A DNA stretch of 64,000 nucleotides, from positions 1-64,000 of the forward strand of contig JAPPMM010000052.1 of NCBI GenBank assembly GCA_028819075.1, written 5' to 3'. A program made the translations under genes and the position numbers. The DNA comes from Gammaproteobacteria bacterium (GTDB taxonomy: Bacteria; Gemmatimonadota; Gemmatimonadetes; Longimicrobiales; Gaopeijiaceae). Shown one piece after another: positions 391 to 11,685 of the stretch (its first letter is position 1; each line of letters opens with the position of its first letter). Below the pieces are notes generated by a model, which was not told where the DNA came from, searched no databases, and worked only from the letters and a program-made list of their open reading frames with translations.

Positions 391-1593
391 TCAGCCCGCG
401 AGGTACTCGGCCCAGTCCTCCATGAGCCGACGCCTCCGCTCGAACAGATCGGTCCGCATGTACGCCGCCTCGACCTTGTTCTGAACGACATGGGCCAGCG
501 CCGCCTCGACGACCTCCCTTGGGTGATCGGTCTTCTCGGCGGCCCAGTCACGGAAGCTGGACCGGAACCCATGAGGCACCGCCGAGATCCCGCAGCTCAG
601 GAGCAACCGCCCCGGCCGCTTGCGGGTCAGCGGCTTGCCGCGCTCGTTGACGAACACGATCGGACTCGCCCCATCGCCGAGCTGCCGCGCCCCGTCAAGC
701 ACCTCCAGCGCCCGCCCGGACAGCGGCACCCGGTGCTCCTTCGCCGTCTTCGTCCGGCTTGCCGGAATCGTCCACACGCCCGCACCTTGGTCGATCTCGC
801 TCCACACCGCCCCGCGGACCTCGCCGCCCCGTGCCGCCGTCAGGACCAGGAACTCGAACGCCAGCGTGTCCACTTTCCCCGGCTTCGCCGCCCGCACTTT
901 CGCGATAGCCGCCGATACCTCGCCGTGAGGCAGGGCCTTCCGGTGGGTGACGACATCGTGCTGGGGGCCGAGCACCGGCAGGAGCCGGTCGCAGGGGTTG
1001 TCCTTCCGCCAGTCCATGGCGACCGCCCACTCCAGCACCGCCCGGATGCGAAGCCGGACGGAGCGGGCGACCTTCGGCCTCGCGTGCCAGATCGGAGAGA
1101 GCGTTTCCAGCACGTCGGCGCTGGTGATCTCGGAGACCGGCAGCTTCCCAAGTCGTCCGAAGGCATACATCTCCAGCGAGCGGGTCCACAACCTCGGGGT
1201 CTTCGCGCTGCGCCACCCGCCGCGCTTCTGCTCGATGACGCGCACGGCGGCCTCGGCGAAGGTGGGGACGCCAAGGGACCGGCGCTTCTCGGCCACCGGA
1301 TCGCCGCCCGCGCGGGCCAGCTTCCGGTTGGCCAGCGCCTGCTCGCGCGCCTCGGCCAGCGAGACGAGGACGACGCTGCCCAGGCCGATCTCACGCTTGC
1401 GGCCCCGGACGACGAGCCGTTGGATCCAGCTTCGGGTCCCGGTCTTCTTGACGTAGAGGTACAGCCCGTTCCCGTCGCAGTGCCGACCGGGCGGGGCGGA
1501 GCGCACGAAGGCGGCCGACAGCCGGTTGTGGGGATGGCGGCCCTTGGGCTTGCCTCGTCGGCGCTGGGTGCGGGTTGTGGTGACATTATTCAT
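391..1593 (-). CDS. Tyrosine-type recombinase/integrase (DUF4102/P4-like)
   Basis: Site-specific recombinase of the kind that inserts and excises genomic islands. The 400-residue protein has the three-part P4-integrase layout: an arm-binding DUF4102 domain at about residues 23-105, a core-binding helical domain at about 110-200, and a catalytic domain to the end. The catalytic residues can be placed: R255 in TAARGGEV, a lysine in the TKTAKEH turn, H341 and R344 in VPHGFRSSF, H367 in ALAHVV and the nucleophile Y378 in EAAYMR. Length is normal, so the gene looks intact. I found no tRNA or obvious attachment site within 220 bp upstream. The element it served is either off the left edge or decayed. 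Together with the IS3 remnant near 4.3 kb it marks this end as accessory DNA. Confidence 0.92.
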   Translation of the reverse strand: MNNVTTTRTQRRRGKPKGRHPHNRLSAAFVRSAPPGRHCDGNGLYLYVKKTGTRSWIQRLVVRGRKREIGLGSVVLVSLAEAREQALANRKLARAGGDPVAEKRRSLGVPTFAEAAVRVIEQKRGGWRSAKTPRLWTRSLEMYAFGRLGKLPVSEITSADVLETLSPIWHARPKVARSVRLRIRAVLEWAVAMDWRKDNPCDRLLPVLGPQHDVVTHRKALPHGEVSAAIAKVRAAKPGKVDTLAFEFLVLTAARGGEVRGAVWSEIDQGAGVWTIPASRTKTAKEHRVPLSGRALEVLDGARQLGDGASPIVFVNERGKPLTRKRPGRLLLSCGISAVPHGFRSSFRDWAAEKTDHPREVVEAALAHVVQNKVEAAYMRTDLFERRRRLMEDWAEYLAG

Positions 1594-5946: not shown

Positions 5947-5977
5947 TAGTATCACCTATCGCCCACGCATAGTATCA
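5947..5977. repeat. Two TAGTATCA repeats at 23-bp spacing
   Basis: The 11-mer ATAGTATCACC occurs at 5946-5956 and 5969-5979, and its core TAGTATCA lies at 5947-5954 and 5970-5977. The second copy overlaps the UGSC stop codon. The core is the reverse complement of TGATACTA, one of the four sites at 42843-42917, where spacing is also 21-23 bp. The location is between two convergent genes, so a role in initiation is not obvious. Part of the sequence (GATAG..CTATC) can also fold. Confidence 0.4.
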
Positions 5978-6511
5978 CCCCTCGCCCCCGGACATCAGAC
6001 TCCGCAACACCACCTCCAGCGCATCCTCCGCGAGCTGCTCGAGTTCCTCGGGGCGCCGGTTCTGGACCGGGTGTGGCACCCACACGATCTCCGGCTCGAA
6101 GCCGAGAGAGGGGATCTGGAAGGAGGCCGCCTCGCGGAAGGCGGTGGTGGCGATCAGGAGGCCGGGGAGGCCGCGATCGTCGAGAGCCTTGATGTCGTGC
6201 AGACCGCACGATACGCACGATCCTCAGTCGGCGAGCGCCTCCACGACCACGTCGGCTCCGGCGGCGATGTCGTCCAGGATCGCGTTGCTGGCGGGCTTGG
6301 CGTTGGTCGGCTTCGCGAAGCGCGCGGTGGCGATGCCCCGGGCACGGAGCCGAGTCTCGAGGCAGTCGAGGAACTCGTCGGCGCGGGACTTGCCGATGTC
6401 GAAGAGCGCCACCGTCCTGCCCTCCAGCGACGCCGGGGGCTTGCACCGCGGACGCGTCGCGGGCGCGGTCTCGGACGTGGGGTCGTGCAGGGTGACGGTG
6501 GATTCGGTCAT
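5975..6511 (-). CDS. UGSC-family selenoprotein with in-frame UGA (selenocysteine 96)
   Basis: A conventional reading would stop at the TGA at 6226-6224, after 95 codons ending EALAD. If that TGA is read as selenocysteine, the frame continues 83 more codons to the stop at 5977-5975 and gives a 178-residue protein. The UGA is followed at once by Gly-Ser-Cys, which is the UGSC motif that names this selenoprotein family. The extension keeps typical coding character (VSCGLHDIKALDDRG, IATTAFREAASFQIPSLG, IVWVPHPVQ). A second Cys pair member lies in VSCG. A 6-bp hairpin with a GGUCU loop sits 12 nt after the UGA, as in bacterial SECIS elements. The start overlaps the stop of the thioredoxin-fold gene by 4 nt (ATGA), so the two are translationally coupled. 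The reaction is unknown; a thiol/selenol redox role is inferred. No selA, selB, selC or selD is in the window. Confidence 0.88.
6195..6211 (-). promoter_or_regulatory. Bacterial SECIS-like hairpin downstream of the UGA codon
   Basis: On the mRNA, UCGUGC and GCACGA pair perfectly over 6 bp and close the loop GGUCU. The stem starts 12 nt after the UGA and the loop 18 nt after it. Bacterial SECIS elements sit immediately 3' of the UGA within the coding region, with an exposed GU/GGU in a small apical loop, as in E. coli fdhF. This hairpin fits that description. It would bind SelB loaded with selenocysteyl-tRNA. Confidence 0.8.
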
Positions 6512-7953
6512 TCGGTGATCTCTCTGGTGACGGGGTGGGATTCCTCGAAAAGGCGTCCCCCCGGCCAGCCCGACAGGATGGCCGAGAACAGCCCGGCGGG
6601 ACCTCCGGCTCGCACCAGCAGAAGGGCGCCGGGATGGAACTTGGGGATGCGCTGGCCCGCGCGGGAGGGGGGCATTCCCTCGGCGACGCCGTCGGCGCCC
6701 GCAGCCACCTTCTCGCCCGGGAGCAGCAGCGCGTCCTGGAGCGCGTGGGTGATCCGGCTTCGGTCCCACCCCGCCTCGCGGTAGATGGCGTAGTGTTCGG
6801 GTGACAGGACCAGAACGGCGGCGGCCCACTCGCACAGCTTGGGGTGTCCCACCGCCTGCAGCCCCATGGCCAGGGAGCGGGTGAGTTCGCCCGGCGTGCG
6901 CGCCTTCTGGTCGGTCACTCCCTGGACCCCGTCGCCGGCGAACACCGTCACCGCGCTCTTTCCGGGAGCGATTCCGCGCGAGACGGCCAGCGGTTCCCAG
7001 CCCTCGTCGCCCTCATCCTCCGCGAAGCAGAACGTGTACTTGCCCGGAGAGCCCAGCGTCGCGCGGTCGATTTCGCCGGGCCGCCCTCCGCCCACATTGC
7101 GGACCACGAGGTTCACGGCGCGGCCGATGGTGGCGTTGGGCCGGTTCCCCTGTCCGAGCGCGTTGAGTCCGGAGTTCATGCCGATGTGCTTCGCGATGGG
7201 GCCGTTGACGATGATCACCGGGCTCGAGAAGCAGGTGCTGCAGGTGACGCCGTGCAGGGTGAACCCCGGGTCCAGGGCGGCCTCGAGGGCCGCGAGCACG
7301 ACCGGCATGTATTCGGGGCGGCACCCGGCCATGACGGCGTTGATGGCGACCTTCTCGACGGTGCAGGGCGCCAGCTCGGGCGGGACCCGGCCGATGACCT
7401 CGTGCGGGTCGCGGCGCGTGCCGCCCAGCATGCGTAGGATGCGCTCGGGCGTCGGCGGGACGACCGGGAGGCCGTCGCTCCAGCCGCGGTCGTAGCAAGC
7501 CTCGATCGCGTCGGCGCCGGACGCGACCTCGACCGTGCGGGCGCGGATTCCGGTTTCGCCGAAGCGCACCCGCAGCGCCTCCGCGACCCCCGGCTCCACC
7601 GAGCGGGAGCCGCAGCCGGGCCGGCGGAGCGGCAGTCCCGCGCCCAGCGTGGGGATGGCCGTGAGCGCGCGCCAGTCTTCACGATGCCAGCCCACCGTGC
7701 GGCCGGTTTCCGCACCGCCCCCCAGCCGGATCAGCGTCGGTACAGTCTCGACGGCGAGGTGGAAGGAGCGTTCGAGCGTGCGGTCGTCCACGGCCGCGGC
7801 GGCGAGGACGGGGCCCAGGAATCCGCCGTCGTCCTGCCAGTAGACCGTCAGCGGATGGCCGGCCTGGTGGATTTCGGCGAGGGCGGGCACCGCCAGGTGG
7901 CAGGTCTCGCACTCGTCCTTCACGACGGCGACGTAGGTGGCGGACTCGGACAT
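6508..7953 (-). CDS. Thioredoxin-fold protein, UGSC partner
   Basis: 481 residues. The N-terminal 90 residues look like a thioredoxin fold: TYVAVVKDECETCHLAVPAL carries a CETC (CxxC) motif at the usual place after the first strand, and VETVPTLIRL gives the cis-Pro strand. A linker contains RPGCGS. The remaining 330 or so residues form a separate domain beginning YDRGWSDGLPVVPPTPERI, with conserved-looking Cys residues (APCTVEKVAINAVMAGC, TCSTCFSSPVI) and glycine-rich turns. I know this architecture from UGSC-associated genes but not its reaction. Its stop overlaps the UGSC start by 4 nt, and it begins 12 bp after higA. The CxxC domain may reduce or recharge the UGSC selenol, which is inference. 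Confidence 0.72.
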   Translation of the reverse strand: MSESATYVAVVKDECETCHLAVPALAEIHQAGHPLTVYWQDDGGFLGPVLAAAAVDDRTLERSFHLAVETVPTLIRLGGGAETGRTVGWHREDWRALTAIPTLGAGLPLRRPGCGSRSVEPGVAEALRVRFGETGIRARTVEVASGADAIEACYDRGWSDGLPVVPPTPERILRMLGGTRRDPHEVIGRVPPELAPCTVEKVAINAVMAGCRPEYMPVVLAALEAALDPGFTLHGVTCSTCFSSPVIIVNGPIAKHIGMNSGLNALGQGNRPNATIGRAVNLVVRNVGGGRPGEIDRATLGSPGKYTFCFAEDEGDEGWEPLAVSRGIAPGKSAVTVFAGDGVQGVTDQKARTPGELTRSLAMGLQAVGHPKLCEWAAAVLVLSPEHYAIYREAGWDRSRITHALQDALLLPGEKVAAGADGVAEGMPPSRAGQRIPKFHPGALLLVRAGGPAGLFSAILSGWPGGRLFEESHPVTREITE

Positions 7954-7965
7954 GAGGTTAAGGCG

Positions 7966-8286
7966 CTACCGCGTGACCGCATCCCGCGCTCTTGTGTCTT
8001 CCCGCCATACGCGCAACCTCCGAGCCTGCGCCAGTTCGTAGCTCGCCTGCATGCGCATCCAATGGTCGGCTGTCCCCCAGCCAAGAGCTTCCAACGCGAG
8101 CGCCATGTTTGCCGACACACCCGCCTTGCCATTCAGTAGTCGTGACAGGGTCCCCCGCTCACAGCCGAGGTGCGCCGCCGTCTCGGTGACGTTCCATCCG
8201 ACTTCGTCCATGCTCTCACGGATCAGTTCGCCCAAGTGCGGGGGGTTCAGCATCGCGCCCACGCGCTCGCCACCAGTACCGTTCAT
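7966..8286 (-). CDS. higA: HigA-family antitoxin (HTH_XRE)
   Basis: 106-residue antitoxin. The motif NPPHLGELIRESMDEVGWNVTETAAHLG is the HigA signature: a PPHPGE-like N-terminus followed by a Cro/C1 helix-turn-helix at about residues 30-75, including CERGTLSRLLNGKAGVSANMALALEALG. The family binds and neutralises HigB and represses the operon through the HTH. The ATG at 8286 is preceded by the strong purine-rich sequence GGAGGGAGGAGAG. An internal ATG at 8253 gives the shorter product seen in some homologues. It lies 18 bp after higB (toxin first, antitoxin second), the usual HigBA order. The palindrome at 8589-8606 is its likely operator. Confidence 0.9.
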   Translation of the reverse strand: MNGTGGERVGAMLNPPHLGELIRESMDEVGWNVTETAAHLGCERGTLSRLLNGKAGVSANMALALEALGWGTADHWMRMQASYELAQARRLRVWREDTRARDAVTR

Positions 8287-8304
8287 GATCTCTCCTCCCT
8301 CCCT

Positions 8305-8577
8305 TCAGTGGTAATCAACCAAGTCCACGTCCACGACCTCGCCCTCCTCAAACCGGAACACCACGCGCCAGTTGCCCGACACGCGCACGCTCCATTGGCC
8401 TGCTCGGTCTCCCTTCAACGGATGCAGCCGGAATCCGGGCGCGTCTGCGCTCCTGGGATGCGTCGCTTCCTGTAGCCGGAACAGGATGCGTCGAAGGCGC
8501 GGCACCAACTGCGCCGGGAGCCGAGCCCGATCGTCCCGTCCATGGAGCGCCCGTAGCCCCTTGTGGCGGATCTTCAT
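8305..8577 (-). CDS. higB: HigB-type toxin (RelE/ParE superfamily)
   Basis: 90-residue toxin of the RelE/ParE fold. HigB toxins are ribosome-dependent mRNA interferases. The C-terminal pattern GFRLHPLKGDRAGQWSVRVSGNWRVVFRFEEGEVVDVDLVDYH is diagnostic: the L..L.G...G.WS..V..NWR..F.F......D.....DYH series is the family signature. It precedes higA by 18 bp on the same strand. No strong ribosome-binding site precedes the ATG at 8577, and an 18-bp palindrome lies immediately upstream. Length is normal, so the module looks intact. Confidence 0.92.
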   Translation of the reverse strand: MKIRHKGLRALHGRDDRARLPAQLVPRLRRILFRLQEATHPRSADAPGFRLHPLKGDRAGQWSVRVSGNWRVVFRFEEGEVVDVDLVDYH

Positions 8578-8638: not shown

Positions 8639-9811
8639 TCAACTCGTCCGGAAGAACGAATCGGGGCCCCCAATCCGCGTCAGCGGCAACGCCGTGATCC
8701 CTTCCGCGACCGGGAACTCACGGTTGCCGGGATAGACCACCCAGAGATGTGCCAGCTCGAGATCCTTCATGACGACGCGCATGGACTTCGTGGTGCGGGG
8801 CGTTTCCGTGCACTTGAACTCGAACCCCCAGCGTCGGCCCCGGCGCAGCAGGAGCAGGTCCAGTTCCGCCCCTCGCTGGGTTCCGTAGAAATACGCGTCG
8901 CGCTGACCGTGGGCGATCAGGGTCTGCTCCAGGGCGAAGCCCTCCCAACTGGCCCCGTACGCGGGATGCACGGCGAGCTCGTGGCTCTCTTCGAGGCCGA
9001 GGAGGAAGTGCAGAATCCCACTGTCGCGCAGATAGACCTTGGGTGACTTCACCAGCCGCTTGCCCAGGTTCGCGAACCAGGGGCGCAGGACGCGGATCAT
9101 GAACGCGCCCTCCAGGAGATCGCGGTAGCGGTTGACGGTTCGCGCGTCCGTGTCCATGGAGCGCGCCAGGCGCGAGGCGTTCCAGGTCTGGCCGTGCACG
9201 TGGGCCAGCATTCTCCAGAAGCGGCCTAGCGCGGCGGGCGAGACGCTCGACCCCAGTCCCGCGATGTCGCGCTCCAGGAACGTTCGCGAGAACGACTCCA
9301 TCCATCGCGTCCAGGCGCCGGCCGACGGGGCCAGCCAAGCTCGGGGAAAGCCGCCGCGCATCCAAAGCCGATCGAGAAAGTTGGGCTGCACCTCCTCCAG
9401 CGAGAACCCGGTCGCGTCCACGAAAAGGATTCTCCCCGCCAGCGACTCCGACACTCCCTTCACCAGATCCCAGGAGGCGCTTCCCAGGAGTAGGAAGACC
9501 GCCTTTCGCTCCGGGTCGTCGCACACGGGCCGGAGGGCCTCGAAGAGGTGCGGGAGGCGCTGCACCTCGTCGATCACGACCAGTCCCTCGCGGTGCCCCA
9601 GCAAGCGGGCAGGAGTCCGGACGAGCGCCTCCCGGTCGGTGGCCACCTCGAGGTCGAAGATGGTGGCGGGGCCGGGCCAGGACGCCGCGATCTCGCGGGC
9701 CAGCGTGGTCTTGCCGACCTGGCGGGCACCCAGCAGCGCCACCGCGGGGGATTCCGCGAGGCCGCGGGTGATCTGGGTGGTCAATGCGGTGCGAGAGATA
9801 GTTTGTTGCAA
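8639..9811 (-). CDS. AAA+ ATPase, DUF4143 family
   Basis: About 390 residues. I choose the TTG at 9811 (MQQTISRTALTTQ) because GGAGAG lies six bases upstream and the length then matches DUF4143 proteins. The frame stays open a further 213 bp but shows no family similarity there. The P-loop LLGARQVGKTT is at about 27-37, and the Walker B segment GLVVIDEVQRLPHL is at about 78-91. A GSAS sensor-like segment follows. The C-terminal half is a DUF4143 region with the restriction-endonuclease-like LDLLLLRRGRRWGFEFKC. These proteins are common in accessory DNA, but their cellular role is unclear. The gene lies upstream of higBA on the same strand, 61 bp before the toxin start. Confidence 0.87.
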   Translation of the reverse strand: MQQTISRTALTTQITRGLAESPAVALLGARQVGKTTLAREIAASWPGPATIFDLEVATDREALVRTPARLLGHREGLVVIDEVQRLPHLFEALRPVCDDPERKAVFLLLGSASWDLVKGVSESLAGRILFVDATGFSLEEVQPNFLDRLWMRGGFPRAWLAPSAGAWTRWMESFSRTFLERDIAGLGSSVSPAALGRFWRMLAHVHGQTWNASRLARSMDTDARTVNRYRDLLEGAFMIRVLRPWFANLGKRLVKSPKVYLRDSGILHFLLGLEESHELAVHPAYGASWEGFALEQTLIAHGQRDAYFYGTQRGAELDLLLLRRGRRWGFEFKCTETPRTTKSMRVVMKDLELAHLWVVYPGNREFPVAEGITALPLTRIGGPDSFFRTS

Positions 9812-9840
9812 ATCTGTCTCTCCATAGCAGGATTTACAAC
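9805..9840. promoter_or_regulatory. 10-bp inverted repeat over the ATPase start
   Basis: GTTGCAAATC (9805-9814) and GATTTACAAC (9831-9840) are inverted repeats with one mismatch and a 16-bp spacer. The first arm covers the proposed TTG start and the second lies upstream of the ribosome-binding site. It could be an autoregulatory operator or an mRNA structure limiting initiation. Confidence 0.35.
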
Positions 9841-10071
9841 ATTCTAACTCGGTCGCCTGGTCGCCCGCAACGCCAGGCTGCCAAGTGACCGTGCCCGCTT
9901 TTCGGTTCGGCGCGGTGATGGCTTGCTCCAGGCTCAGCGCGCGGAGGCGGCGCAAGGCGGCCACTGCCTGTTGCACAGCAGCGAAACTGCGCAATTTGCC
10001 CGGTGCGTTCGACCCCCCAATCACCCTGATTCGCGACGGATCCTGTTCCGACGCTCAGGGGAGGAGGAAAG

Positions 10072-11685
10072 ATGGCGAGGAATGCTCTTGGGGCATTGGC
10101 TCTACTGCCATTCTGGATGAACTCGGCGGCGGCCCAGGAGTTTCCGCCGGGATACGTCGACCCCTGGCCCCTCCTGGCTGCTGCCGCCGAGGAAATCGGC
10201 GAAGCGAATCTCCGCTGCATCACGTTTTCGGGTAACGGGTACAGCGGAGCCGTCGGTCAGACGTTCGAGAACGCGGTGAACGTGGACTGGCCGCGGATCG
10301 GCAACCTGAACAACTACACCCGAAGCATCAACTGGGAGACCCGGACCAGCATCGAAACCTTCGACCGGGAACCGGGCATCAGTCCGGCCGCGTGGAAGTA
10401 CGGCCTGGGTTGGGAGGGAGGCACGCCGACTCAGAGGGAAAGGCAACAGACGCATGTCGTGAGCGGCGACCATGCCTGGCACATCGATGGGGACGGAGAG
10501 CCCGTGCCGGTTCCGCCGGATCTCGCGGAGCTGTACCAGCTCGATCTCTGGCTCAATCCTCCCGGCTTCATCAAGGCCGCGCGCCTGCCCGGGGCCGATC
10601 CTGTCGCCTTCTGGCGGTGGGAGCAGATCGAGAAGGGGCGGGACGGGAACGTGGTCCGCCCCGAGAAGATGCACGTCGTGGCAATCACGATGTTCGGCAA
10701 GTATCGCGTGGACGCGACGATCAACCCGCAGAACCAGATCCAGCGGATCAAGACCACGGTCAACGAACCCGCGCTCGGCGATTTCAACATCGAGCACGAG
10801 TCGACGGAGCAGACGACCTTCGGCGACGTGAAGTGGCCGATCGCATGGCACTCGCACCATGGCTGGGACGACAACTGGCAGTTCTACCGCCAGAGCACGG
10901 GTCACAACGGCTACGGCGGCCGGTTCCCGGATGTGCAGCCCAACGTGTGCCCGGATCCGGGCCCTGTGCCTCCGGCGGTCGCGGAGGCGTCGTTCGAAAC
11001 GGAGGTGACCGTCACCGAGATGGCGGACGGCGTCTATCTCCTGGGCGGGAGCCCGGCGAACAGCTATATGGTCGAATTCGACGAGTTCGTTGCCGTATTC
11101 GAGGCCCCGGGGAATGAGGAGCGGAGCCTCGCGGTCATCGAGGAGATCGTCCGCCTCGCCCCCGGAAAGCCGATCCGCTGGATCATCAGCTCGCACGCGC
11201 ACTTCGACCACATCGGCGGGCTCAGGACCTACCTGCACATCGGCGCCACGGTCGTCACGCACATGATCAACCTCGATTTCCTGAACACCGACGTGCTGGC
11301 CTACGAGCCGCGCACCGTGGAGCCCGACATCGTCTCCATGTGGCCACCCACGGAGTTGGCCGAGGGCTACAACTACGAGGCGGTCCAGGAGAACTACGTC
11401 ATCACCGACAATTCCCGGATCCTTCGGGTCTACTACGTTCAGCCGCTTCGGCACGTCTCGGGGATGCTGATGGCCTATCTGCCGGAGGAGGGCATCGCAT
11501 TCCAGGCGGATCTCTTCGACACGCACGAGCCCCCTCGGCCGGCGCAGTTGCCGGCGATGCGGAGCTTCTACAACCAGGTCGAGAGGATGGGGCTGGAGGT
11601 GTCCACCGTAGCGCCCGTCCACGGGGAGCCGGTGCCCTGGTCGGAGTTTGTGGCCGCGCTGAATTCACTTGAGCGCAGGGATTGA
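10072..11685 (+). CDS. Secreted metallo-beta-lactamase-fold hydrolase
   Basis: 537 residues with a cleavable signal peptide ending near residue 21 (MNSAAAQE). The ATG follows GGGGAGGAGGAAAG, a strong ribosome-binding site. Residues of about 25-290 form a beta-rich N-terminal domain without a recognised family. The C-terminal 220 residues are a metallo-beta-lactamase fold beginning near EMADGVYLLGGSPANSYMVEF. The metal motif SSHAHFDHIGG is at about residue 373 and VAPVHGEPVPW near the end supplies a further His. The substrate is unknown. The two-domain layout resembles periplasmic MBL proteins common in Gemmatimonadota and related phyla. It stands alone between the DUF4143 gene (divergent) and a convergent membrane gene. 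Confidence 0.85.
   Translation: MARNALGALALLPFWMNSAAAQEFPPGYVDPWPLLAAAAEEIGEANLRCITFSGNGYSGAVGQTFENAVNVDWPRIGNLNNYTRSINWETRTSIETFDREPGISPAAWKYGLGWEGGTPTQRERQQTHVVSGDHAWHIDGDGEPVPVPPDLAELYQLDLWLNPPGFIKAARLPGADPVAFWRWEQIEKGRDGNVVRPEKMHVVAITMFGKYRVDATINPQNQIQRIKTTVNEPALGDFNIEHESTEQTTFGDVKWPIAWHSHHGWDDNWQFYRQSTGHNGYGGRFPDVQPNVCPDPGPVPPAVAEASFETEVTVTEMADGVYLLGGSPANSYMVEFDEFVAVFEAPGNEERSLAVIEEIVRLAPGKPIRWIISSHAHFDHIGGLRTYLHIGATVVTHMINLDFLNTDVLAYEPRTVEPDIVSMWPPTELAEGYNYEAVQENYVITDNSRILRVYYVQPLRHVSGMLMAYLPEEGIAFQADLFDTHEPPRPAQLPAMRSFYNQVERMGLEVSTVAPVHGEPVPWSEFVAALNSLERRD

Follow-up and report, generated by a model that had tools for sequence, protein, structure and literature searches.

UGSC-containing selenoproteins were described in 2008 from ocean metagenomes, in which 255 sequences with selenocysteine (Sec) were found versus 21 sequences with Cys; a Trx-like fold was proposed for the family, and fusion with 'Unknown_1' was reported (PMC2398784). 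According to the same literature, UGSC is a major aquatic selenoprotein family (PMC2398784), and UGSC-containing selenoproteins are among the families covered by later surveys (PMC13188914; PMC5029168). Three other described systems are relevant for comparison, namely, the Sec subunit of component B of glycine/sarcosine/betaine reductase (GrdB/GrdF; PF07355, TIGR01917, NF040794), the thiol oxidoreductases of the thioredoxin/TlpA/ResA type, and the selenocysteine insertion sequence (SECIS) of Escherichia coli fdhF.

The 64,000-nt stretch of DNA that was analyzed (hereafter, the window) carries a UGSC-family gene on its minus strand (5975..6511). The frame opens with ATG at 6511, runs to TGA at 6226-6224, continues with GGA TCG TGC (Gly-Ser-Cys), and ends at the TGA stop codon at 5977-5975. 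An initial sequence-only reading had placed the break in the frame at this TGA, right before Gly-Ser-Cys, and had proposed that decoding of the codon as Sec restores a 178-residue UGSC protein; once the minus strand is read, both statements are borne out. In the 178-residue read-through product, Sec is residue 96, in the context LAD-U-GSC-VSC. The family assignment made in that reading is supported as well. The protein matches the broader Pfam family PF24696 over residues 8-172 with 121.7 bits (E=4.7e-35), far above the Pfam cut-off of 25, and shares with the known UGSC proteins (PF24696, NF041046; PMC2398784) the length, the LAD-U-GSC-xx-C motif, and the position of Sec, with the [U/C]GSC motif followed by homology on its 3' side. 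A difference is in the score against NCBIfam NF041046, which is 115.7 bits with Sec scored as Cys, under the curated equivalog cut-off of 125, although all 38 aligned UGSC members match this model at E<1e-3. The protein is a new member of the family known since 2008. The gene may be missed by gene finders, given that ordinary gene finding would truncate it at the internal stop codon and that even the read-through protein falls under NCBIfam's own cut-off. Beyond the first reading, the analysis adds a partner gene, a relationship to GrdB, and a possible second Sec. Another difference from the proteins described in 2008 is that, instead of a fusion with 'Unknown_1' (PMC2398784), UGSC is encoded here by a separate gene behind a partner fused to a thioredoxin domain.

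Fold of the UGSC protein and its relation to GrdB

The AlphaFold model of the UGSC protein (pLDDT 91.3, pTM 0.85) is built of alternating α and β elements, with Sec96 located between a strand (88-94) and a helix (97-112). In the PDB, the model matches flavodoxins and flavodoxin-like domains best, although with TM scores of only about 0.4-0.5, so that UGSC is predicted to be a small, single-domain protein with a flavodoxin-like fold. The Trx-like fold suggested in 2008 is not supported by the model, because no thioredoxin is found among its best 50 PDB matches. A search for sequence relatives of UGSC in the PDB returned no credible hit (best E 0.7).

At the sequence level, profile comparison relates UGSC to GrdB. 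Genes of the GrdB type were retrieved from other genomes and translated through their UGA (for example, L101: 'ILTAT-U-GTCTRCGATMAKEIERAGIPTALIST...NRIVAGRAVIHPVGD'). When the UGSC and GrdB profiles were compared using hhalign with the Sec column masked, the score was 48.9 (probability 92%) and the Sec positions fell in register; the best of 60 column-shuffled controls scored 23.6. In addition, at E<1e-3, 7 of the 38 UGSC members matched NCBIfam GrdF, and 5 of the 38 matched gly_red_sel_B (TIGR01917). The Sec domains of GrdB/GrdF and UGSC share the order of their elements as well as their register, with a hydrophobic strand, U-G-[ST]-C-x-x-C, a helix, a G-[IL]-P strand, and an HP motif. The Sec half of UGSC, the only part that the relationship covers, hence appears, from these profile matches, to be a homolog of the C-terminal domain in which GrdB carries Sec and, apparently, uses the same scaffold.

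Nevertheless, UGSC is not a GrdB. Compared with the >400 aa of GrdB/GrdF, UGSC has 178 aa and lacks the GrdB N-terminal domain: PF07355, which in GrdB-like proteins models only the part before Sec, gave no match at E<=10 in the UGSC protein and none in the window's genome. A further difference is that UGSC has no GrdE-like pyruvoyl-subunit neighbor; homology of the partner protein to GrdE was considered and rejected (hhalign probability 0.12%).

Some of the same genomes also encode short GrdB-like Sec proteins with the motif V-U-P-x-C. These resemble UGSC in the strand-Sec-helix arrangement and in having a similar length before Sec, but they differ in the motif, and their profile matches that of UGSC less well (score 30.0). 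Many genes of this kind, each with an in-frame TGA (L084-L100), are present in the Proteobacteria and Acidimicrobiia (genomes of L056, L057, L058, L061, L062, and L065), some of them two in tandem.

The main competing view of the function is that UGSC is a general thiol-disulfide or peroxide reductase of the thioredoxin or peroxiredoxin kind rather than a GrdB-type enzyme. The UxxC motif, the Trx-like fold suggested in 2008 (PMC2398784), and the true thioredoxin domain in the partner all speak for such an activity, and the flavodoxin-like fold is itself compatible with peroxide or disulfide reduction. However, the matches of the confident model (pLDDT 91) are to flavodoxin-like folds, thioredoxin being absent from the 50 best, and the profile and family matches of UGSC go to GrdB and GrdF. 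We regard a general thiol or peroxide reductase as possible but somewhat doubtful; GrdB-type chemistry, which is proposed by analogy, has about even odds.

Decoding of the internal UGA

The case for Sec at residue 96 is primarily comparative. In the window's genome and its relatives, each of the 14 full-length family members carries TGA at this codon (6224..6226, minus strand). The same is true of every one of the 44 loci, representing six bacterial groups, that were recovered by scanning one genome per species across 84,980 species, the groups named being Gemmatimonadota, Acidobacteriota, Chloroflexota, Acidimicrobiia, and Proteobacteria; the two sets partly overlap, with some genes common to both. 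The sequence-only reading had asked whether homologs have U or C at this position: aligned, both sets have TGA throughout. The scan used two patterns, one of which spelled the motif with Cys (LADCGSC), and, within its reach, that is, among relatives sharing those stretches, none of the 44 loci encodes a Cys homolog. Had homologs stopped at residue 95, the proposal would have failed, but in every full homolog fetched (44 loci and 14 genes), the protein is conserved on both sides of the UGA.

The window's genome (4.4 Mb, 97.6% complete) encodes the complete Sec machinery, with matches above the curated cut-offs for tRNA-Sec (selC; 74.8 bits, UCA anticodon), SelB (309.6 bits), SelA (516.2 bits), and SelD (301.5 bits). 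The full set that was to be looked for is present, and the absence of selB and selC that would have counted against the proposal was not encountered. Across 59 genomes, comprising the window's own and those of its relatives, UGSC was found in 13 and a SelA match in 40, including all 13 UGSC carriers.

Downstream of the UGA, we found the hairpin claimed in the sequence-only reading (6-bp stem, loop GGUCU, 12 nt after the UGA), exactly as described. This SECIS-like element, UCGUGC-GGUCU-GCACGA (6195..6211, minus strand), is separated from the UGA by the 12 nt GGATCGTGCGTA and consists of the stem arm TCGTGC (6211-6206), the loop GGTCT (6205-6201), and the stem arm GCACGA (6200-6195). A hairpin in a single gene is weak evidence, because the peptide sequence by itself determines most of the stem. 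In simulations, 15% of the synonymous recodings of the window peptide formed the hairpin stem, and some 6-bp hairpin was present nearby in 24%, so a 6-bp hairpin was no longer taken as proof of a SECIS; this stem together with GU at the loop position was formed in only 0.9% of the recodings.

The claim of a SECIS-like element is supported instead by the behavior of the hairpin across the family. In an alignment of 42 sequences (33 distinct), 96% of the stem cells are paired. The loop codon ends in T in all 44 loci (AGT in 26, GGT in 17, and TGT in 1), whereas elsewhere in the family genes, GGT accounts for 5.7% of the Gly codons and AGT for 7.2% of the AGY codons. Columns 18 and 30, which are the third bases of Ser/Thr and His codons, respectively, are G-C in 28 loci, A-T in 11, G-T in 4, and G-G in 1, with no A-C, such that the pair is G-C, A-U, or G-U in 43 of the 44 loci. 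On a tree built without the SECIS-coding stretch, column 18 changed three times and column 30 five times, and the window's own clade, G-C within an A-T group, represents a synonymous double change at the two columns; the co-variation at this one pair comprises only three independent changes, too few for a significant sign test. Taken together, the position just downstream of the UGA, the conserved G/U in the apical loop, and the signs of selection argue strongly that the hairpin is under family-wide constraint. The element also resembles the fdhF SECIS, the sequence of which was confirmed in an E. coli collection: the loop and 3' stem stretch GGUCUGCAC is identical, and the distance from the UGA is 11 nt in fdhF versus 12 nt here. 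The difference is that the stem of the present element lacks the bulged U and has 6 continuous pairs.

Collectively, these observations indicate that the UGSC gene is very probably a real selenoprotein gene with Sec at the internal UGA, a reading that is convincing because of the comparative data rather than the hairpin in a single gene. Translation stops at any Sec UGA in a fraction of cases, and the codon could accordingly be imagined as a selenium-sensitive switch, with a 95-aa truncated form being a normal functional product beside the full protein; this is highly improbable, given that a product ending at the UGA would lack the invariant Cys residues as well as the helix following Sec and would not make up a complete fold. 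A lone in-frame TGA cannot by itself separate Sec recoding from a genome-wide reassignment of TGA to an amino acid, but the chance of such an alternative code is slight indeed, with the UGSC gene and its partner both terminating at TGA, long ORFs intact under table 11, and the full Sec machinery in the genome. Finally, for a draft assembly in 65 contigs and a family with Cys versions in ocean data (21 Cys vs. 255 Sec; PMC2398784), one might suspect that a Cys codon was mutated to a nonsense codon or misread in sequencing, but such a pseudogene or artifact is refuted, leaving it a vanishingly small likelihood, because the same codon is TGA in all 14 and all 44 homologs, with conserved protein on both sides.

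The partner gene

Immediately upstream of the UGSC gene lies a gene for a 481-aa protein (6508..7953, minus strand) that has no match to any Pfam or NCBIfam family. The stop codon of this gene and the UGSC start codon share 4 bp in an ATGA overlap (6508..6511, minus strand), an arrangement that suggests translational coupling of the two genes. The partner consists of an N-terminal thioredoxin-fold domain (7639..7953, minus strand) with CETC at residues 15-18 (7911-7900), followed by an invariant Cys in PGC[GTSA]S and a large domain. The first Cys of CETC is invariant in 27 aligned sequences, and Cys114 in PGCGS (codon at 7612..7614, minus strand) is at an invariant Cys position. The C-terminal domain (approximately residues 140-481; 6511..7536, minus strand), delimited by DGLPVVPPT ... 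NALGQGNR, has no known family. For the whole partner, the model has a pLDDT of 87, and the best Foldseek matches of its N-terminal part are DsbE, ResA, and thioredoxin. In its fold and CxxC motif, the N-terminal domain resembles the thioredoxin/TlpA/ResA-type thiol oxidoreductases, from which the partner differs by the fusion of this domain to the large one.

The association of the two genes holds across the six bacterial groups. The large domain is encoded upstream of UGSC in 42 of the 44 loci, at a distance of no more than ~330 nt except in L069 (1.7 kb). One of the two exceptions is L072, in which 313 nt separate UGSC from the locus end; the other is L078, which shows a downstream copy only. 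A copy of the large domain is located a few kb downstream of UGSC in both L069 and L078 (Acidobacteriota), with no upstream copy found in the latter. In the set of 59 genomes, the 13 that carry UGSC are precisely those that have the full-length partner, all with selA; in a fourteenth (G009), the partner is cut by the contig end. Clustering of the ORFs in the 44 loci identified no third conserved operon gene, yielding only the pair and its antisense shadows, along with an ABC-transporter-like ORF shared by three loci.

In the proteobacterial locus L060, an in-frame TGA (6793-6795, plus strand) takes the place of the invariant PGCGS Cys of the partner. A 6-bp hairpin, GCUGCC-GGG-GGCAGC, follows after 14 nt and ranks second in stability among the partner hairpins scanned. 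This suggests a second Sec position, possibly in a family whose other members all have Cys there, and marks the PGCGS Cys as probably catalytic, with the caveat that it is a single case and could reflect an error. Assembly errors in single genes can also occur more generally in the draft genomes used.

Several other features of these loci were observed. In some genomes of the same genus (L040, 5542-5634; G003:C41:231365-231481; G009:C52:1594-1710), a fragment of the DGLPVVPP region, apparently a duplication relic, precedes the partner by ~0.9 kb, and low-complexity insertions in the partner were found in L054 (~35 residues, in the large domain) and L046 (~60 residues, in the Trx domain). In the window, a gene for a HigA family antitoxin (TIGR02607, 69.9 bits) and a weak RelE-like toxin gene lie directly upstream of the UGSC operon (7966-8577, minus strand), in an order that suggests higBA. 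An AAA_14/DUF4143 ATPase (8639-10024, minus strand) is encoded between this pair and a metallo-beta-lactamase-fold protein (10072-11685, plus strand). A tyrosine integrase with Arm-DNA-bind_3, Phage_int_M, and Phage_integrase domains (391-1593, minus strand) suggests a mobile element near the operon. There were no Rfam matches in the window.

A candidate selenium-dependent two-component reductase

We conclude, with a probability of roughly 85%, that the locus is a two-gene redox operon encoding the UGSC selenoprotein and its redox partner, with UGSC likely functioning as a thioredoxin-fed selenol reductase. The coupling, electron path, and chemistry of the pair that we infer are as follows. 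With the hairpin 12 nt downstream as their guide, SelB and tRNA-Sec would decode the UGA as Sec96, which, placed at the start of a helix, would probably be a nucleophilic selenol that attacks the substrate. By analogy with GrdB, the attack could result in reductive cleavage of a carbon-heteroatom bond or, otherwise, of another electrophile, after which Cys99 or Cys102 would resolve Sec as a selenenyl-sulfide. Sec would then be regenerated by the partner, with electrons passing via CETC of the thioredoxin domain and the invariant Cys of PGC(U)GS, and the large domain of the partner may serve to bind the substrate. Glycine reductase draws electrons from thioredoxin, a fact consistent with the fused thioredoxin domain.

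UGSC and its partner might thus constitute an apparently undescribed Se-dependent two-component reductase, in which a minimal GrdB-type Sec domain operates without a pyruvoyl subunit, a dedicated thioredoxin domain is provided, and the partner can carry a second Sec (PGUGS); we consider the arguments for this composite description to be evenly balanced. UGSC has been listed without a known function since 2008, and the partner, together with the relationship to GrdB, yields a concrete biochemical hypothesis, with the operon partner providing a tight, testable lead on the function of the family.
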